In this document: in pieces, positions 11,914 through 21,893 of the stretch
How positions within the stretch are numbered: the stretch's first letter is position 1
How the letters are laid out: each line of letters opens with the position of its first letter
Source of the DNA: a virus
Direction: 5' to 3' (one strand)
Length of the DNA: 40,886 nt
IMG/VR virus record: IMGVR_UViG_3300033153_007483
Location: 1-40,886 of that record
Position numbers and translations under genes: made by a program
Notes under the pieces: model-generated
Database searches by the model: none
Told to the model about the DNA's origin: nothing
The model's input: only the letters and a program-made list of their open reading frames with translations

Positions 11914-11972
11914 CCAACTTTCAAAAAAGAAGTAAATAGCTTAAAATGGTAATATAATCTTATGGGGTGCTA

Positions 11973-13466
11973 ATGGGACTTATAAACAATGGTAAAATCA
12001 GCTTATCTCTCTTCAAAAAGAGATCAAGATCAAAAACAAGAGCAGATAATAACTTCGGAACTATCAGTGAGGGAATAGCCGAGCCTCAAAAATACAGAAA
12101 AGAAAACCTTAACGATATTGACAAATATTACAAATCTACTCAATACGATAATTTAATGAGTTGGGAAACTTGGGAAGGCGGAGACACAGGAACCTCTTCG
12201 AGATCTGCACAGCCTAAAGTTATCTATCCATTTTTACAGGTTCTATGCGATAGAATTTCAGCAAAATTAATTGGACAAGAAACTTTTCCAGACTTTAAAA
12301 TAGAAGATGATCCAGATTTTCAATTTTTTGGTGAACTTGTCGAAAACAAAATATTACTTAAGGCAAAAATACAGTCAGCTCTTTTAAAACTTCCTATCAT
12401 GGGGAGCTGTTTTATTCGTACAAGAATTTCTAATGGTATGCCAACGATTGAGCAATACGATTCAAAATATTGCTATCCTGAGTTTAGTGGTTCTGGTGAT
12501 CTTGAAAAAGTTGAGATTAAATATATTTATGAAGATGATAAAGAAACTGATCACAATGGTAAGCCTGTAAAGAAGTGGTACAAGCTTGAATTAGGGATGA
12601 TGAAAGATATTCTCTACAATAATCCAAAATATGAAAAAGCAAAAGAGCCAGTTTTTGAAGTTCAAACAGTAACAGACCATAATCTAGGTTTCGTACAAGG
12701 CACATGGTTTCGTACATCATTTGAAAGAAACTCTCCTGATGGCAAAACTTTTGTAAGTGATGCTCTTCTCTCTTTCATTGATGAGTTTAACTATAGTCTA
12801 ACAAAAGCCGCTGGCGCAAGCGAGTATGGAACAGACCCACAACTAATCATTAACGGCATGACAGAGGATGAAGTAGGAGAGTTAGTAAAATCAACTCACA
12901 ATGCTTGGATGATGGGAAGAGAGGGCAAAGCAAGCCATCTTGAGTCAAGCAATGGTGGAGTTCAGTCTTCAGGTGAGTTCAGGGATAGACACCTTCAAAA
13001 ACATATCTTAGATATTGCTAGAGTTGCCGTTTTAGATCCAGAGAAGATCGTGGGATCTGCTCAGTCAGCAAAAGCCATGGAAGTCTTACATGGGCCAATG
13101 ATTGATATGATTAACGAGCTTAGACCTTATGTAAAGGCAGGGCTTCAAGATCTTTATTCTAAAATATTAATGACTTTAGTTATTCTTAATCAGAGAGGTT
13201 ATACGCTAGGTTTCGTAATGCCTCCACAGTATCAGCCTGTATCTGCAAACATTAGTTTTTCATGGCCTCCAATTTTTCCAATGACTGCAATGGATAAACA
13301 GCAAACAATTTCTTATGTTATGCAGTTAACAAGTGGAAATATTGTTTCAAGGGAAACAGCATTGCGTTGGCTTAAGGTAATGATTCCAGATATGCCAATT
13401 GAGGACATCGAGAAAGAGCTTCAATTAGTTAATACCCAACAACAGTTTAATACTTGGGGATTCTAG
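11973..13466 (+). CDS. Portal protein
   Basis: 497 residues from ATG 11973 (GGGG upstream; a GTG at 11967 is possible). Typical portal order: LMSWETWEGG near the start, YPFLQVLCDRISAKL, a wing with KLPIMGSCFIRTR and IEQYDSKYCYPEF, a stem DALLSFIDEFNYSLTKA, and a C-terminal crown with MAMDKQQTIS-like helices (TAMDKQQTISYVMQLTSGN). It forms the dodecameric DNA gate at a capsid vertex. Position after terL agrees. High confidence. Confidence 0.88.
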   Translation: MGLINNGKISLSLFKKRSRSKTRADNNFGTISEGIAEPQKYRKENLNDIDKYYKSTQYDNLMSWETWEGGDTGTSSRSAQPKVIYPFLQVLCDRISAKLIGQETFPDFKIEDDPDFQFFGELVENKILLKAKIQSALLKLPIMGSCFIRTRISNGMPTIEQYDSKYCYPEFSGSGDLEKVEIKYIYEDDKETDHNGKPVKKWYKLELGMMKDILYNNPKYEKAKEPVFEVQTVTDHNLGFVQGTWFRTSFERNSPDGKTFVSDALLSFIDEFNYSLTKAAGASEYGTDPQLIINGMTEDEVGELVKSTHNAWMMGREGKASHLESSNGGVQSSGEFRDRHLQKHILDIARVAVLDPEKIVGSAQSAKAMEVLHGPMIDMINELRPYVKAGLQDLYSKILMTLVILNQRGYTLGFVMPPQYQPVSANISFSWPPIFPMTAMDKQQTISYVMQLTSGNIVSRETALRWLKVMIPDMPIEDIEKELQLVNTQQQFNTWGF

Positions 13467-13468
13467 CC

Positions 13469-13693
13469 ATGGGCAAAGTTCTAAGCTTAAATGATAATAA
13501 AAAAAACTGGTACACAGGAGTTGCTTTTTGTTGTGAGTGTAAAAAGAAATGGTTTCCAGTTTTACAAGATGGAACGGACGAAGAGAAATTAGAGTGCCCC
13601 TCTTGTTCGGTTCAGAATAGCGTTATGATTAATTCCTCTGAAATAATAGAACACTCTCAACAGTTAATAGATTCGGGATGGCTTAACGACTAA
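13469..13693 (+). CDS. Small zinc-ribbon protein
   Basis: 74 residues from ATG 13469 (GGGGA upstream), 2 bases after the portal stop. Two knuckles, AFCCECKKKW and ECPSCSVQ, make a CxxC...CxxC zinc ribbon. Such small genes are often found after portal genes; the function is unknown. Confidence 0.55.
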   Translation: MGKVLSLNDNKKNWYTGVAFCCECKKKWFPVLQDGTDEEKLECPSCSVQNSVMINSSEIIEHSQQLIDSGWLND

Positions 13694-13709
13694 CAAAAGG
13701 AATATTAGT
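13689..13709 (+). promoter_or_regulatory. Hairpin around the SD and GTG start of the next gene
   Basis: ACTAA (13689-13693) can pair with TTAGT (13705-13709), the same arms as at the csrA-like gene. The 11-nt loop contains AAAAGGA; the GTG start (13708) is partly in the 3' arm. Weak alone, notable as part of the set. Confidence 0.4.
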
Positions 13710-14256
13710 GGGTTTATTTTCAAGAACAAGACATTTTTTCAAGACTAAGAAAACTTTTGAGCCACAAGAAAGGATTTCAGCGAACCTAAAAAATGGTGAT
13801 AACCTATTTTTAAATGTTGATGGTTCAGAAGATCCACAAATATTTGAATGGGTTGTTCCTCAAGGCAAAAACGCATGGATAAAAAAAGTCATGATTGCTG
13901 GCGTTAATGACGATATTTTAATGACTAATTTTATTGGTATACCAGCCTTAGCGGTTGGCGTTCAAGCTATGGTTGTTGATGAAAACGACAATATAATAAA
14001 AGATTTCACAGAAGAGCATAACGTGGTTAATACTCTTATGCTTGCTGTTTATAATGGCGCAAGCATTTCTTCTGTAATTGATAGAGTTGGTGGCTTAGAA
14101 GATGCTGTTTTATTTAGCAATGATTTCAAAGAAAATGCAGGGGAGCCGATGTTTATGCGTGAAGGTTGGAAATTTCAGTTTATAATTAATGATGATCTGA
14201 CAGATATTGACGTTCTAGGAGCAATGATAAAAGGGATATTAGTAGATAAATTTTAA
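13708..14256 (+). CDS. Structural-type protein, paralogue A
   Basis: 182 residues from GTG 13708. Same length as its neighbour and clearly related: MGLFSRTRHFFKTKKTF at the start, VVPQGKNAWIKKV in the middle, and a C-terminal block AGEPMFMREGWKF ... DIDVLGAMIKGILVDKF. Beta-rich throughout. The place between portal and head genes suggests a head decoration or head-associated protein. No database family is recognised. The relationship to paralogue B is seen directly. Confidence 0.6.
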   Translation: MGLFSRTRHFFKTKKTFEPQERISANLKNGDNLFLNVDGSEDPQIFEWVVPQGKNAWIKKVMIAGVNDDILMTNFIGIPALAVGVQAMVVDENDNIIKDFTEEHNVVNTLMLAVYNGASISSVIDRVGGLEDAVLFSNDFKENAGEPMFMREGWKFQFIINDDLTDIDVLGAMIKGILVDKF

Positions 14257-14266
14257 TGGGGGATAT

Positions 14267-14815
14267 ATGGGGATTTTTTCAAGAGGTTTAGGGTTCTTTA
14301 AAGGTAAGAAAACTTTTACAGGTGATGAGTTTATCTTTAAGTATCTTAGAAACTCAGCACTTTCTAAAGATATAAATATTAATGGGAGCGTAACCCCTGT
14401 TTTTTTCGAGTATATTGTACCTGAAGGTAAAAATGCTTGGATAACAAGAGTTAATTTATTTGCGCTTAATCAAAATATCAAGATTGATACTTTTTTCGGT
14501 GTTGCTCCATTAACCAATGGTGTTACTTTTTGCGTATCAGATGAAAACGATAATGTGCTTATTGATTTTACAGATGGTGAAGGGATTAAAACAAATGAAG
14601 AGTTTGTTTCACTTGCTGGCTCTGATGTTAACACAACTTCATCATCGTTAGGTAATGATGCCGATGGATCAGCTATCAGATGGACTATTTCAAAGGCTGG
14701 TGAGCCTCTTTTCTTAAGAGAAGGGCATAAGTTAAGAATGAAAGTAAGCGACGACATAAGCGATATTGATATGCTGAGGGCAATGATCCAAGGTATTATA
14801 GTCGATAAGTTTTAG
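14267..14815 (+). CDS. Structural-type protein, paralogue B
   Basis: 182 residues, GGGGGA SD. It shares with paralogue A the opening (MGIFSRGLGFFKGKKTF), the central VPEGKNAWITRV and the end (AGEPLFLREGHKL ... DIDMLRAMIQGIIVDKF). The middle has diverged, including an extra Ser/Thr/Asp-rich stretch. The tandem duplication implies a protein present as two variants, perhaps at quasi-equivalent sites of the head or as decoration. Function inferred from position only. Confidence 0.6.
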   Translation: MGIFSRGLGFFKGKKTFTGDEFIFKYLRNSALSKDININGSVTPVFFEYIVPEGKNAWITRVNLFALNQNIKIDTFFGVAPLTNGVTFCVSDENDNVLIDFTDGEGIKTNEEFVSLAGSDVNTTSSSLGNDADGSAIRWTISKAGEPLFLREGHKLRMKVSDDISDIDMLRAMIQGIIVDKF

Positions 14816-14823
14816 GGGGATCT

Positions 14824-15345
14824 ATGGCAATACAGGGTTTTAAACGAGCCAATATAGGCATACCAGAGGAAAGGCAATTTACCAATCCTCATGTTAGGTT
14901 TATCCGAAAACATGGAAGGGTAATTCCTATCATTAATAAGAAAAGAGTTGGTCAAGACATAAGCAGGCTTGGCGAAGGAATGGCTACAACTGGTTTTGTT
15001 GTTACTGCTACAGGATTGATAAAAAGCAAGGCAGGAAAGAAAATTGGAAAAACTAGAGTTGCTAAGTTGTTCGCAAAGGATGCTAGGAAGCTCAAAAGCT
15101 CTATTCTTAAGTCAAAGTTTGCAAGCAAGGGAAAGCAATTTGCTGGAAGATATAAGAAGATTAAGTTTATTTCTAAAATATCAAGTAAAGCATTAGCTGG
15201 ATCAGTTAAGCATATGACTAAATTTGGAATAGCTACTTCTGTTCTAGGAATTGGTGCCGCAATAATAGGTTCTGAGCTACAAATGAGATCTCCTTTTGGT
15301 AAAGATTTATTCTTTATCAGAGATCAGCACGATAGGAGTTCATAA
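14824..15345 (+). CDS. FIRK-motif basic protein 1
   Basis: 173 residues, SD GGGGGAT. Residues 24-36 carry the shared motif (VRFIRKHGRVIPI). The protein is strongly basic (many Lys/Arg) with two Ala/Gly hydrophobic segments: GMATTGFVVTATGLI (about 52-66) and FGIATSVLGIGAAIIG near the C-terminus. These could insert in a membrane. Size, charge, hydrophobic patches and place between portal and head genes recall internal head or ejection proteins delivered with the DNA. No family recognised; role inferred. Confidence 0.6.
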   Translation: MAIQGFKRANIGIPEERQFTNPHVRFIRKHGRVIPIINKKRVGQDISRLGEGMATTGFVVTATGLIKSKAGKKIGKTRVAKLFAKDARKLKSSILKSKFASKGKQFAGRYKKIKFISKISSKALAGSVKHMTKFGIATSVLGIGAAIIGSELQMRSPFGKDLFFIRDQHDRSS

Positions 15346-15346
15346 A

Positions 15347-15841
15347 ATGGCCAAAAATAAAAACATAAGATTTATTAGAAAGAGGGGACGAATAATCCCT
15401 ATTGCTGTCAGTAAGGAAATTTCAGTCGGTAAAGAGATCTTGTCAGCAAAAAACAGAGCCTCAGTATTACAGGCTAGTGGTGCTGGTGCTGGTTATCTTG
15501 CAGGGCTATACGGAGCAGGGAGGCTGCACAAGAAGGCTTTAGAAGTTGGCTCAAGCAAGCTTAATAGAATTGCAAAGCTTGGAAAGTTTGGAATAGCTTT
15601 CGGTGCTGCCGCAATGTTGGCTAACGCAGTAACAAAGATTGATAAAAGTACAGCCGATGAAAAGGCTAGATTTTTAAACATCGGATCTCAGGCTAAAAGT
15701 ATACTTGGTCATACAGCGGCTTTTGCTCTTGCATATGGTGGTTATAGATTTGGAAAGAGATTTGAATATGCTGGGAAGATGGGCGTAAATTTATTAACTA
15801 AAAAAGGTATCAAGTCAATGAGACACCTAAAGGCGTTATAA
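15347..15841 (+). CDS. FIRK-motif basic protein 2
   Basis: 164 residues from ATG 15347 (AGGAG upstream; a further upstream ATG at 15296 lacks an SD). The motif IRFIRKRGRIIPI is at residues 7-19. Rich in Ala/Gly with hydrophobic stretches (GAGAGYLAGLYGAG, GIAFGAAAMLANAV, TAAFALAYGGYRFG) separated by basic segments. It overlaps the next gene by one base (TAATG). Probably works with the other three motif-bearing proteins. Confidence 0.6.
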   Translation: MAKNKNIRFIRKRGRIIPIAVSKEISVGKEILSAKNRASVLQASGAGAGYLAGLYGAGRLHKKALEVGSSKLNRIAKLGKFGIAFGAAAMLANAVTKIDKSTADEKARFLNIGSQAKSILGHTAAFALAYGGYRFGKRFEYAGKMGVNLLTKKGIKSMRHLKAL

Positions 15842-16551
15842 TGGATGATGAAAAACCGATAAAGTTTATAAGAAAAAGAGGAAGAATAATTCCCATATTC
15901 AGGACAAAGAAACAAAGAAGAGATCTTGCGCATGGAACTTCTTTACTCGCTGGTGGAGTTGCTACAACAACAGGCGGATCTTATGCCTCTGGTAAGCTTA
16001 TTTTAGCAGCTAGAAAGATTAGACAAGCCGCAAATATTGGAGCGCAAAACATTATGGCAGCCAATAGCGGTCATGTAGATCTAAAATCGTTCAGACTGAG
16101 AAAAACAAAAACTGGCAAGATATTAGGTATGGGCGGCAGGGCTTCGGTTAATCCAAAACAATTATCATTATTTGAGTCAGCTACAAAGAGAGTTAGTAAG
16201 TCTTTTTCAATAAAAAAGAGAGTTAAGGCTTACAGGTCAGCTTTTGCGGCAAGAAAAATTCTTGGATATTCCCATAGCTTTGCCCATGCTGCGGTTGGGC
16301 TTGGAGTTGATAAACTGATTGAGTCTTCAGGTATTGAAAAGCACATAGGTACAGAATACCTATCAGAAATAGCAGGGGTTGCAGCTTTCGGGACAACACA
16401 TTCTTTATCAAGAAATATTTATAGAAAAGTTGGGTATGGAGAAAGTTTAAAGAGAGGGTTTAAAAAAGATATTCTCAAGTCAGGGAGGAAATATTCTTCT
16501 CTCGTGAAAAAACTTGGTAAATATTATTTAAAGAAAAAGTTTAAGATTTAA
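15841..16551 (+). CDS. FIRK-motif basic protein 3
   Basis: 236 residues. Motif IKFIRKRGRIIPI at residues 7-19, nearly identical to that of protein 2. Hydrophobic or glycine-rich parts: GTSLLAGGVATTTGGSYASG (about 38-57) and a C-terminal region with IAGVAAFGTTHSLS. Very basic C-terminus (LKRGFKKDILKSGRKY, then YYLKKKFKI). No catalytic motif seen. Likely a head-internal or DNA-associated protein by charge and position. Confidence 0.6.
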   Translation: MDDEKPIKFIRKRGRIIPIFRTKKQRRDLAHGTSLLAGGVATTTGGSYASGKLILAARKIRQAANIGAQNIMAANSGHVDLKSFRLRKTKTGKILGMGGRASVNPKQLSLFESATKRVSKSFSIKKRVKAYRSAFAARKILGYSHSFAHAAVGLGVDKLIESSGIEKHIGTEYLSEIAGVAAFGTTHSLSRNIYRKVGYGESLKRGFKKDILKSGRKYSSLVKKLGKYYLKKKFKI

Positions 16552-16561
16552 GGACAATAAA

Positions 16562-16933
16562 ATGCCTAATGATAAGACAGATAGCAAAGGTAATAAAATC
16601 ACGTTTATTCGTAAAAATGGGAAGGTAATTCCTATCAAGGCGAAGAGTGGGGGATCTGGTGGGGCAAAGAGTGGAATAAGGAAGCCTAAGAAGGCCAAGA
16701 AAAAGAATCTTACTGGTCAAGCGAAGAGTGAATATCACGCTAAGAGAATGTCATTCCACGAAGGTCATGCGGATAGACTAAAAGGAAAAAGTAAATTTAA
16801 AGCACTTCACTCGTTTCATTCAAAACAGAGTGCAAAACATGGAAAAAAGGTTAATTGGGATCATGATTTTGAGACACATAAAGAATATAGCCAAGGGCTT
16901 AAAGGTAGAAAGAAAATGGCGAATACTGGCTAA
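16562..16933 (+). CDS. FIRK-motif basic protein 4
   Basis: 123 residues. Motif ITFIRKNGKVIPI at residues 13-25. Unlike the other three it has no hydrophobic segment: it is Gly/Ser/Lys-rich (SGGSGGAKSG, KPKKAKKK) and has many His in its second half (EGHADRLKG, LHSFHSKQSAKHGKK). Looks unstructured and DNA- or RNA-binding. It ends the four-gene motif cluster. Confidence 0.55.
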   Translation: MPNDKTDSKGNKITFIRKNGKVIPIKAKSGGSGGAKSGIRKPKKAKKKNLTGQAKSEYHAKRMSFHEGHADRLKGKSKFKALHSFHSKQSAKHGKKVNWDHDFETHKEYSQGLKGRKKMANTG

Positions 16934-17040: not shown

Positions 17041-17871
17041 GTGGTATTTAATCCAAATCAGTCAATAATCGAAAGACACGCTAGGAGCCTTCTGGGGCTA
17101 GAAGATACTCAGGCAAGAGTTATCTTAGCTCAGTATGCGGAAGCCTTTAAGCAAGTGAAAAGCCGCCTCCTGATGGTGTCTGATAATACTTTCACTGAGG
17201 CAAGGCTAAAAGTAACATTAGAGCAACTTTCTTTGTTTATTGATGCTCTAAATAGAAATCTAAAAAATGATATAAATCAGAGTTCTTTCTTCTCGTTCGA
17301 GCAAGGTATTGAAGACTCGGTTTCCGAGATAAATAAGTTCGAGAGAGATTTTACAGGGATAACAGGGATAGTCCCACTTGATGCAATATTCAAAGCAACA
17401 AAGAAAAGGACTTATTTAGTTAATCAATTTCAAGGATCAATAATTTCTTACAATGAATCATTAAGAAGTAATATTCAGCAAGAATTAACTCAGGCATTAA
17501 TACAAGGAAAATCATATACTCAAGTTATCCTAGGTGTTGAAAATGCTATGAAATCATCCATGTGGAAAGCTCAGAGAATAGTAAGAACTGAGATGCATAA
17601 TATCTATAATGTTTCAAAAATGGACGGAATGACAAAGATTAAAGATAAGCATATTCCTGACCTTAAGAAAATGCTCATTCATCCAATGGACAATAGAACT
17701 GCACAGGATTCCAAGGATCTAGCAGAGGAAAATCCTATTGTTGAAATAAGTAAGCCTTTTAAATTCAAATATAATGGCGAGATAAGAATATTTATGAATC
17801 CCCCAGATCGTCCAAATGATAGGGCAATCTTGATACCAGTACGAGATAAGTACCTTGAAAGTGACAAGTAA
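17041..17871 (+). CDS. Head morphogenesis protein, Mu F/SPP1 gp7-like
   Basis: 276 residues from GTG 17041. Characteristic features: a helical N-terminal half, then MWKAQRIVRTEMHNIYN (about 179-195), MLIHPMDNRTAQDSKDLAEE, and a C-terminal MNPPDRPNDRAILIPVRD. These are the conserved blocks of the Mu gpF-like minor head proteins. Members are bound to the portal or inside the head and assist assembly or DNA ejection. Its position before scaffold and capsid genes agrees. High confidence on family. Confidence 0.85.
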   Translation: MVFNPNQSIIERHARSLLGLEDTQARVILAQYAEAFKQVKSRLLMVSDNTFTEARLKVTLEQLSLFIDALNRNLKNDINQSSFFSFEQGIEDSVSEINKFERDFTGITGIVPLDAIFKATKKRTYLVNQFQGSIISYNESLRSNIQQELTQALIQGKSYTQVILGVENAMKSSMWKAQRIVRTEMHNIYNVSKMDGMTKIKDKHIPDLKKMLIHPMDNRTAQDSKDLAEENPIVEISKPFKFKYNGEIRIFMNPPDRPNDRAILIPVRDKYLESDK

Positions 17872-17922: not shown

Positions 17923-18762
17923 ATGAAAATGTTTATTAGAATGTTATTTATGTTTTTCAGTTTTTTCTTTATGGATATTTCACGAGTAATGAAGTGCGAG
18001 GGTGGATTTATTCGCTTTGGCGGTATCGGTAATATGTTAATGGAAGAAGAAGGCGGCGGCGAAGGTGGTGCTGGCGGTGGTGGTGGAGAAGGATCTGACG
18101 GCGAAGGTGGCTCTGGTGAAGGTAAAGGCAAAGGCGAAGGTAAAGGCGATCCAGACCCTAACGATAAGGGAGCCAATGACTTTGAAGATCTTCCCGATTG
18201 GGCCAAGAAAGAAATAGGCGATTTAAGAAAAGAAAATGCATCAAGAAGAAAGTCTGGTAAGGACGTTGGCGATAGACTCGACAATTTACAGAACGGACTA
18301 AAAAAAGCTTTTGGTATCGAGCAAAATGAAGAGGTTGATCTTAACGAACAGGTTTCGGGATTAACTGAGAGGCTAGAAGAATCTCAATTTCATAATGCTA
18401 TCGTAGAAATGGCGTACGAAAACGAGATACCGAAAGATAAAATAAGCTTCTTTAAATTCCGTTTGAATGAAGCACTTCAAAGCGTAGGTGAAGAGGAAGA
18501 ACTTCCAGCCGAGGTTATGAGTGCAATAGTTCAAGAGGTTAAAGGGGCTGGGAAAGGCGCAGGAAGCACCGATCTTGAAGGAGATGAAGGAGGCAAGAAG
18601 CCTACAGGTGAAGGAGAAGGCAAGAAAAAAGACTTCTCTAAGATGAGCGCAGAAGAGTTTGTAAAAACCTCGGACAGTGATAAGAACCTTCTTTTCAAGA
18701 ATGACCGAGCTACTTATGATCGTCTGCACAGTGAAGCAAAGGTAAAACGTCTATACAGATAG
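17923..18762 (+). CDS. Scaffold-like head protein with glycine-rich linker
   Basis: 279 residues from ATG 17923 (AAAGGAG upstream). Residues 1-18 are hydrophobic (MKMFIRMLFMFFSFFFMD), then a Gly/Glu/Lys low-complexity stretch (about 43-82). A region typical of scaffolds follows: DLPDWAKKEIGDLRKENASR, a coiled region to about 165, an acidic linker, and a basic C-terminus (TYDRLHSEAKVKRLYR). It lies just before the major capsid gene, the usual place for scaffold. The hydrophobic start is odd for a scaffold; internal ATGs at 18034/18040 would remove it but lack a good SD. Confidence 0.7.
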   Translation: MKMFIRMLFMFFSFFFMDISRVMKCEGGFIRFGGIGNMLMEEEGGGEGGAGGGGGEGSDGEGGSGEGKGKGEGKGDPDPNDKGANDFEDLPDWAKKEIGDLRKENASRRKSGKDVGDRLDNLQNGLKKAFGIEQNEEVDLNEQVSGLTERLEESQFHNAIVEMAYENEIPKDKISFFKFRLNEALQSVGEEEELPAEVMSAIVQEVKGAGKGAGSTDLEGDEGGKKPTGEGEGKKKDFSKMSAEEFVKTSDSDKNLLFKNDRATYDRLHSEAKVKRLYR

Positions 18763-18781: not shown

Positions 18782-18802
18782 ACTTTCAAGGAGTTAGAAA
18801 GT
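18782..18802 (+). promoter_or_regulatory. Hairpin with SD loop at the major capsid start
   Basis: ACTTTC (18782-18787) pairs with GAAAGT (18797-18802), leaving AAGGAGTTA as a 9-nt loop. The first two bases of the GTG start (18801) close the stem. Fits a CsrA-type site (GGA in loop, over the SD) controlling the most abundant virion protein. Confidence 0.5.
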
Positions 18803-19706
18803 GACTACATCAAGCGTAGATTTAACTTTTGAGCCTAAGATTTGGCAAGACCATATCGAGGGCTATTTCGATCAAAAATTAGTGTATGGTGCTTTCGCAT
18901 ATGTACCAGAGGAAGAGTATATCCCTTATGATCTTGCTGAAGGTGGGGAGACAGTAAACTTTCCATACTTTAATAATATTGGGGATGCTGAAGAGCCAGA
19001 AGAGGAAGAGTCTTTAACAGTTGATAAGCTCACAGATGGTAACTTTACTGCTGCCGTTAAAGAGTTTGGTAAAGCTGTTGGAATTAAGAAAAAAGCAATT
19101 CGTAAGTCATCGGCTAAGAGAGATAGGATCTTTCGAGAGATGAGACAACAGGTTGCTAGAGTTCTAGCTGAGAAGCTAGATAATAATCTCAATACTGAGA
19201 CAAACGAAGCTGGTAACTTCGATCAAGGTTATCTTGCAACGGCTGCGGCTAACACAATGAGCGTTAAGACTCTCATGAGTGGTCAGGTTAAGGCTTTTGG
19301 AGATAAGGCGGATGATGCAGAAATCTGTTTCATGCACTCTTATCAGTACCATGATTATGTTACCGATGCTACGACAGGATTTATCAAGGCAGATGCTAAT
19401 GATCCTTTCTATTTCGTTAACGGATTCAAGGGAAGAGTTAATCAAGGTCTGGTAATTGTTGTTGCTGATAGTGTTAAGAAAGTGGCTGATATTGACGGCA
19501 AGGATGCTTATCAAGCAATGATCCATAAAGCTAGATCATATGGATATATGCCAGCCGAGGAAATGGATTTTGAAATGGATAAGGATATTCTAGCAAGATC
19601 TGAGGTTATGGTTGCTACTCAGTGGTACGCTGTTAAGTCTTTCCATAAGAAGAAGTCTGCGGAGTATAAAACTGCGGCAGCGGTAACAACTACCGTAACT
19701 CTTTAG
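18801..19706 (+). CDS. Major capsid protein (HK97-fold type)
   Basis: 301 residues from GTG 18801. Opening segment with FEPKIWQDHIEGYFDQ, then a long strand region with GETVNFPYFNNIG (E-loop-like), a helical spine KRDRIFREMRQQVARVLAEKLDN, and CFMHSYQYHDYVTDAT and VVADSVKKV of the A/P domains. This is the pattern of phage capsid proteins of the N4 gp56/P22-coat type. It is placed after the scaffold and followed by a strong terminator, as usual for a highly expressed coat gene. High confidence. Confidence 0.85.
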   Translation: MTTSSVDLTFEPKIWQDHIEGYFDQKLVYGAFAYVPEEEYIPYDLAEGGETVNFPYFNNIGDAEEPEEEESLTVDKLTDGNFTAAVKEFGKAVGIKKKAIRKSSAKRDRIFREMRQQVARVLAEKLDNNLNTETNEAGNFDQGYLATAAANTMSVKTLMSGQVKAFGDKADDAEICFMHSYQYHDYVTDATTGFIKADANDPFYFVNGFKGRVNQGLVIVVADSVKKVADIDGKDAYQAMIHKARSYGYMPAEEMDFEMDKDILARSEVMVATQWYAVKSFHKKKSAEYKTAAAVTTTVTL

Positions 19707-20619: not shown

Positions 20620-20984
20620 TGGCTTTCACTGACACAGAAAAGGCAGAGGTTTTATACTACTTAGGTTATCCAGCTAAAGTGATTGATCCCGATTCACTGG
20701 AATATAACTCTTTAGTGAATAGTAGGCTTGTTAATTTCCCAGAAGATTTTGAGGCTTTTGTAAGAAAAATAGTTGTTGATATTAAAGAACTTGAAGCGCA
20801 ACTAAAAAAATCTCAATGCACAATGGGGACTAAGCAAGTTGGAGATATAGTTTTAAATCCTGATAAAGTTGCTTCAAATCTTAAGAGAGAATTTAAGCGG
20901 CTTCTTATGGAACTATCAGAGGTTACAAACATTAGATATATTAGCAAGCGACTAGGGAGTAGTGTTGTTAAGGTGAGGTTCTAA
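20619..20984 (+). CDS. Putative head-tail connector (adaptor) protein
   Basis: 121 residues, helical: TDTEKAEVLYYLGYPAKVID at the start and KREFKRLLMELSEVTNIRYI near the end. It is the first of four short genes between capsid and tail sheath, the usual place of adaptor (gp6-like) proteins. The assignment rests mainly on position, size and helix content. Confidence 0.5.
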   Translation: MAFTDTEKAEVLYYLGYPAKVIDPDSLEYNSLVNSRLVNFPEDFEAFVRKIVVDIKELEAQLKKSQCTMGTKQVGDIVLNPDKVASNLKREFKRLLMELSEVTNIRYISKRLGSSVVKVRF

Positions 20985-21442
20985 TGAGTTGTGATTTAAA
21001 AGACTCTATTGCTGATGCTATTGATTGCGCTCTACAGGTTAGAGATGATCTAGGGCTTCAAATCCACAATGTTTATATTGTTACTAGAACTAGAGCCGTT
21101 GCAGATCCAGAACTAGAAGGATTCGGAGAAGAGGGAATGATTATTGATACTAAAGTACAAATTTTTCCTACTCCTAAAATTGTTGATTACTCTCATAGTT
21201 TAAGAACTAGAGAAGGTGGCTCAATAAAGCAGGGTGATTTAGTTCTTAAGCAGATCTCTAAAAACAATTATTCAAGAGAAGATATTGATTGCACGAAAAC
21301 AGAGATCCAAGGCGATAATGTAGAGAAATATTATTATATAAATAGTGATCTCTATACTGTTATTTCTGTTACTGAAAAAGTTATGTGGTGGAATGTTCAA
21401 GTAAGAAAACATATAAGCCAAGAGGTTTACTTTGCCGATTAA
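20984..21442 (+). CDS. Putative neck/head-closure protein
   Basis: 152 residues, SD GAGG; overlaps the previous stop by one base. Mixed alpha/beta with strands such as NVYIVTRTRAV, MIIDTKVQIFPTPKIVDYS and KYYYINSDLYTVISV. Position second in the neck cluster suggests a head-closure (stopper) protein. No specific motif recognised. Confidence 0.5.
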   Translation: MSCDLKDSIADAIDCALQVRDDLGLQIHNVYIVTRTRAVADPELEGFGEEGMIIDTKVQIFPTPKIVDYSHSLRTREGGSIKQGDLVLKQISKNNYSREDIDCTKTEIQGDNVEKYYYINSDLYTVISVTEKVMWWNVQVRKHISQEVYFAD

Positions 21443-21893
21443 GACTATAAAACTTAGTCAATTAGCATCAGAGCTAGGAATAGCTGCAAGAGATATTCAA
21501 GAGGCTCAAAGAGGCATTGTAGCAAATGCCATCATTAAAGAATTTCCAAATATTATTAAAAACTCTCCTGTTGATACAGGTTTATTTTCTCAGTCATGGG
21601 ATTTAGTACAGACAGAAACAAGTATGTTGTTAGGAAACTATGCCCCTCATGCTTCTATAATTGAATATGGAGCTAGGCCTTTTACACCTCCAATCGGTCC
21701 CTTGCTTGCATGGGCCAAAAGAGTTTTACAAGATCCTTCCCAGCCGCCAGAGTATTCTAGTGATGTCTGGGGCCTTGCTAAAGGTACTCAAAAGAAAATT
21801 AGTGAGCTAGGTATGCAACCTAAAGGTGTTATGGAAAAAGCAATACCTAAAATTATTGATCAGATAAAAATAGATATAGAGGCCATGCAATGA
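21432..21893 (+). CDS. HK97 gp10-like neck/tail-completion protein
   Basis: 153 residues from TTG 21432 (GAGG six bases upstream; no ATG nearby), overlapping the previous gene by 11 bases. The block IIKNSPVDTGLFSQSWDL, then NYAPHASIIEYGARPFTPP and LLAWAKRVL, is the signature of HK97 gp10-type proteins, which act at the head-tail joint or in tail completion. Good confidence. Confidence 0.72.
   Translation: MPIKTIKLSQLASELGIAARDIQEAQRGIVANAIIKEFPNIIKNSPVDTGLFSQSWDLVQTETSMLLGNYAPHASIIEYGARPFTPPIGPLLAWAKRVLQDPSQPPEYSSDVWGLAKGTQKKISELGMQPKGVMEKAIPKIIDQIKIDIEAMQ

Follow-up and report, generated by a model that had tools for sequence, protein, structure and literature searches.

The capsid targeting sequence of bacteriophage T4 is N-terminal and is cut off by the prohead protease. 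The internal proteins of T4 are highly diverse, and the only element common to all of them is a short terminal capsid targeting sequence that directs them to the prohead core (PMC3012670). One packaged and injected T4 protein, Alt, is an ADP-ribosyltransferase (PMC5512222). In phage P1, the first 30 residues of DarB suffice to package a reporter, the signal spanning more than 9 but no more than 30 residues, and no common consensus was found among the Dar proteins (PMC9024508). In SPP1, gp7, a protein of the MuF type, is targeted into the procapsid by the portal protein, and MuF-fused toxins are believed to enter the capsid in the same way, through portal contact (PMC6316719); a family of MuF polymorphic toxins is treated in a further article (PMC5576092). 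Phages and conjugative elements also encode polyvalent proteins, among which ART-PolyVal domains are found in a virion-gene context and which are predicted to be injected (PMC5512222).

The locus considered here lies in a window of 40,886 bases, the whole stretch of DNA that was analysed (IMG/VR record IMGVR_UViG_3300033153_007483). As in T4, a short terminal sequence (the tag) stands on otherwise unrelated proteins. Unlike the T4 sequence, however, this tag may be located at either protein end, is predicted to form a β-hairpin and belongs to a phage with SPP1/Mu-F-like head genes. Whereas the Dar proteins of P1 lack a consensus, a single one here runs across about 94 families. The portal/MuF neighbourhood is the same as that of SPP1 gp7 and the MuF toxins, but the cargo consists of separate tagged proteins instead of being fused to MuF. 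At about 260-306 aa, MuF in this clade stops shortly behind its MuF domain and carries no C-terminal effector fusion. The short MuF, together with the separate and tagged cargo, suggests targeting in trans. As among polyvalent proteins, an ART-PolyVal domain and a virion-gene context are found in the tagged set; unlike the multidomain polyvalent chains, the tagged proteins are small, apparently single-domain and share a common tag.

Tagged genes of the window and their neighbourhood

The sequence-only reading had described four consecutive, very basic and otherwise unlike proteins, three of them with Ala/Gly hydrophobic segments, that share an N-terminal FIRKxGRxIPI motif between portal and Mu-F-like genes. 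This description holds in full for the window. The four ORFs and their motifs were re-located at the residues claimed (Table 1), Ala/Gly-rich hydrophobic stretches were seen in C1-C3 and a strongly basic character in all of C1, C2, C3 and C4, the flanking genes match PF05133 and PF04233, and the unlikeness of the bodies extends to the relatives, in which 244 tagged proteins clustered with the tag masked fall into 94 families, including 66 singletons. When the motif was written as a degenerate DNA pattern, exactly four matches were obtained in the window, compared with none in 100 shuffles.

Table 1. Features of the head-gene region of the window (positions of the window)
Feature	Position	Strand	Details
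Portal protein (SPP1 gp6-like)	11967..13466	+	PF05133 E=8e-11, phrog_64; left border of the cargo slot
C1, tagged protein 1	14824..15345	+	173 aa; tag VRFIRKHGRVIPI at residues 24-36
C1 tag core FIRKHGRVIPI	14899..14931	+	degenerate DNA pattern match
C2, tagged protein 2	15347..15841	+	164 aa from ATG 15347; tag IRFIRKRGRIIPI at residues 7-19
C2 tag core FIRKRGRIIPI	15371..15403	+	degenerate DNA pattern match
C3, tagged protein 3	15841..16551	+	236 aa; tag IKFIRKRGRIIPI at residues 7-19
C3 tag core FIRKRGRIIPI	15865..15897	+	DNA pattern match; AF2 strands 7-12, 15-20
C4, tagged protein 4	16562..16933	+	123 aa, Lys/His-rich; tag ITFIRKNGKVIPI at residues 13-25
C4 tag core FIRKNGKVIPI	16604..16636	+	degenerate DNA pattern match
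Mu-F-like minor head protein	17041..17871	+	PF04233 E=2e-7; without extra C-terminal domain; right border of the slot
Scaffold-like protein	17923..18762	+	phrog_8952, weak phrog_233
Major capsid protein	18801..19706	+	phrog_544, PF25209
h2 and h3 genes	20984..21893	+	border a second cargo slot in relatives

None of C1, C2, C3 or C4 received a Pfam or PHROG assignment. The C1 family counts five non-redundant members including C1 itself, all of them tagged (e.g. in L010 and L045), and the C2 family three, likewise all tagged, while no homologue was found for the C4 body (a family of one). The second slot, between h2 and h3, is empty in the window, where the two genes overlap. Sheath-type and Baseplate J genes located downstream indicate a contractile-tailed phage. 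Pfam and PHROGs comparisons of the genes for portal, MuF, scaffold and capsid protein matched no protease family.

Three untagged genes (13454-14815) separate the portal gene from C1. Two of them (13708-14256 and 14267-14815) are similar, with starts MGLFSRTRHFFKTKKTF and MGIFSRGLGFFKGKKTF, are probably paralogues and have relatives in very few viruses.

Spread and placement of the motif

Three degenerate patterns, searched over 2.9 million viral contigs, returned 47, 26 and 41 stretches, and head genes homologous to those of the window accompany the motif in 44 of the 47 loci of the first set and in all 21 new loci of the second. Across the genomes of some 85,000 species of bacteria and archaea, the pattern had 10 matches, only one of which (L052) comes with the head genes of this phage; it is a contig of a Chitinivibrionales MAG carrying the phage head module. 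This MAG was the one outcome of the search for a host, since the capsid gene was found in no other genome of the 168 searched in its phylum. A position-specific matrix was built from 118 seeds and used with a threshold of 9, the top score among 1500 shuffled ORFs being 2.9; it parts tagged from untagged ORFs cleanly. In this way, 288 non-redundant tagged ORFs were collected from uncultured myovirus-like phages related to the window, with the 13-residue consensus [VI]-x-F-[IVR]-R-x-x-G-R-[IV]-[IV]-P-I. Most of these relatives are metagenomic fragments with predicted ORF starts, and the virus groups referred to below are an operational grouping.

The search for recurring positions and neighbours proposed in the sequence-only reading thus led to protein ends only and to slots of the head operon. 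The N-terminal placement claimed there applies to 240 of the 288 ORFs but not strictly, as the tag is C-terminal in 41 and present at both ends in six; the remaining one combines an N-terminal tag with a weak copy near the C-terminus, and a purely internal tag was never found among the 288. Likewise, the single FIRKxGRxIPI motif is valid for the four window proteins, whereas FIRK-, F[IV]R[IV]- and FRRI-type forms exist in relatives. Both ends carry a copy in L024:768-1328, L044:1223-1750, L215:3837-4859, L066:7465-8409, L067:3340-3882 and L219:4977-5528; such proteins often bear one FIRK-type and one FRRI-type copy.

When the tag peptide by itself, C3 and a number of tagged proteins were compared with 50,697 named phages by tblastn, no relevant match was obtained, PHROGs returned weak or few matches only for tagged proteins, and no paper describing the motif was found in the open-licence literature. 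By core genes, the nearest named relatives are remote (a Komagataeibacter phage for the portal, with 21.5% identity, and an Alicyclobacillus phage for the sheath).

Confinement to slots of the head operon

Because the first loci had been found via the motif, relatives were re-collected through alignments of the MuF and capsid proteins, giving 127 loci that were merged into 70 viruses by shared near-identical ORFs. A tag is present in 59 of these 70 viruses. The portal-MuF interval contains tags in 50 of the 54 virus groups where it can be seen, and the h2-h3 interval in 16 of the 44 where that one is visible. Counted by ORF in this sample, tags are borne by 119/152 in the portal-MuF slot, 34/97 in the h2-h3 slot, 10/32 between terL and portal, and 3/16 between the capsid gene and h1. 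By contrast, none was found in about 707 core-gene ORFs, in 89 ORFs upstream of terL, in 32 between tube and tape measure (TMP) or in 21 between dec and h1. The Fisher value for slots against core ORFs (p~1e-103) overstates independence, since redundancy was cut at 90% identity only, but the contrast itself is near absolute. Broad occurrence in unrelated non-virion proteins, which would have spoken against a sorting signal, is therefore not what the core and upstream ORFs display. The tag is real, stands only at the ends of non-homologous bodies and is confined to slots of one head operon.

Untagged ORFs also occupy the slots (33/152 in portal-MuF and the majority in h2-h3). In L164:2952-7289 and L208:2095-6333, the h2-h3 slot is filled by untagged gene blocks, one of the genes encoding 1170 aa, without tagged cargo.

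The conserved member C3

C3 is a near-universal core gene of this phage clade, with 61 non-redundant homologues in 56 virus groups, mostly directly before MuF, of which 58 are tagged. The mean majority residue within the family reaches 0.72 in tag columns versus 0.32 in the body. In an AlphaFold (AF2) model of C3 computed from 57 sequences (mean pLDDT 81), residues 7-12 and 15-20 form a β-hairpin at a pLDDT of about 90, followed by long helices; the tag is thus predicted to fold as a β-hairpin. A Foldseek search of the model against PDB and viral models gave no significant match. C3 is probably a helical, Gly-rich ejection protein or membrane-inserting internal protein.

What carries the tag

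Tagged proteins are mostly 100-350 aa long, with at most one recognised domain among those examined, and most cargo has no known domain. Their net charge per 100 aa is +13.4 with the tag excluded, versus -2.1 for core proteins, and a hydrophobic stretch of 19 residues is found in 49% of them versus 15% of core proteins. Cargo with Gly-zippers is present as well. Among recognisable enzymes, the set includes about 10 GNAT acetyltransferases, two ART-PolyVal ADP-ribosyltransferases (in L180 and L157) well above the Pfam cut-off (E=2e-17), and eight HExGH metallopeptidase-like proteins where 0.05 would be expected. With ART-PolyVal, the tagged set contains a domain from the repertoire of injected effectors.

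An alternative N-terminal motif

In four viruses the portal-MuF interval can be seen but no tag is present, and in two of them the C3 homologue starts with a different motif, GSRGG[HK]II..T..G.P[IV]Y. GSRGG-type starts are carried by proteins at L144:4111-4686, L144:1767-2552 and L131:4270-4971 (identical in L128 and L201). In L144, a second slot protein, located between terL and portal, begins similarly. In these two viruses the GSRGG motif looks, from the protein starts, like a replacement of the FIRK tag, possibly serving as an alternative packaging tag. When the two viruses were compared in search of a tag reader, no core protein was found to be outlying. Neither the FIRK-type nor the GSRGG-type motif is present in the corresponding region of the Komagataeibacter phage.

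Role of the tag

The tag is best explained as a portable capsid-targeting signal that loads proteins into the phage head for delivery to the host, to which we give a probability of roughly 75%. A virion sorting signal fits because the tag is end-only, the bodies are unrelated, their genes are confined to the head operon and the cargo is of a suitable kind; the same observations, together with the selection on the peptide and the apparent substitution of another motif in two relatives, favour the proposal of the sequence-only reading that virion-internal proteins are sorted by it. Gene position, charge and cargo type point to a virion location of the tagged proteins. A short basic-hydrophobic β-hairpin (xFIRK-NG-RIIPI and variants), borne at either protein end, would be recognised during prohead assembly, and the protein attached to it would be carried into the head. 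After DNA packaging, it would be kept with the genome and then delivered into the host. C1, C2, C4 and the changing sets of the relatives would represent lineage-specific cargo, comprising basic DNA-compatible proteins, membrane-active proteins and host-modifying enzymes. The reader of the tag would presumably be the portal, MuF, scaffold or capsid protein. FIRK-, F[IV]R[IV]- and FRRI-type tags occur mixed within one phage, so that a single strict reader is not obvious.

Docking of the tag to the particle's exterior or neck (portal/connector or head-tail joining), with the proteins having a structural or decoration role, is unlikely. The slots do flank the portal gene and the head-completion genes h2/h3, and a hairpin could extend the β-sheet of such a protein. 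However, cargo differs wildly from one relative to the next. It comprises enzymes that act on intracellular substrates (ART-PolyVal, GNAT, metallopeptidases) as well as membrane-like proteins of very basic character, a mixture more in keeping with the inside of the head than with a fixed structural function. It is still less probable that the tag works after entry, in crossing or inserting into the host envelope or at a host target, packaging being directed otherwise: such a function would accord with the Gly-rich hydrophobic helices of many tagged proteins, but the tag is also borne by soluble enzyme-like proteins, at either end, is tied to one clade, and has neither the length nor the low basicity that a membrane anchor would need.

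That the tag mainly binds DNA as a basic hairpin, the proteins being packed passively with the genome, is very improbable. Although this role would suit the basic tag residues and the highly basic character of the bodies, the most fixed tag positions include F, G, P and I besides R/K, and the bodies are already very basic on their own. Moreover, a non-specific role would not require one motif over about 94 families, and two viruses have a different motif in its place. Finally, a conserved element at the DNA or RNA level, a seed for recombination or a shared ancestry of gene starts is hardly credible despite cargo sets that differ strongly among relatives, as for shuffled genes. The DNA-element reading was rejected, given that C-terminal copies exist and that the codon entropy at each tag position differs little from the value for that amino acid in the bodies, tag codons being as varied as body codons, so that the peptide and not the DNA is under selection.

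The capsid-targeting signal preferred here is most likely a new one, functionally like those of T4 and P1 but usable at either end. In a more far-reaching and tentative version, which we hold to be possible but doubtful, it would act as a clade-wide zip-code in which a hairpin at either end loads any protein, phages swap cargo freely among fixed slots, and code and reader are exchangeable together (FIRK for GSRGG). Capsid-targeting signals are known from a few model phages. In the uncultured phages considered here, about 290 candidates for packaging are recognisable by one simple consensus, so the likely virion-injected repertoire could be read from sequence. An end-agnostic tag would be on offer for loading proteins into phage heads, and the selection of internal proteins becomes directly testable.

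Other features of tagged proteins

A kinase-like pattern (VLK.P ... D.H.GNI ... DTA) is found in L066:7465-8391, L215:3837-4826 and L119:6069-6968, a group tagged at one or both ends. Its identity as a kinase is a guess from this pattern; the structure model of the double-tagged L215 protein has a pLDDT of 40.

Basic residues followed by a TG[VFLI] or SSV ending are observed in 24 of 247 N-tagged proteins versus 22 of 1615 untagged ORFs, the pattern having been defined post hoc. Such ends occur in L005, L006, L212, L209, L219, L112 and others, and at 16532-16930 of the window; they may represent a second signal or common ancestry.
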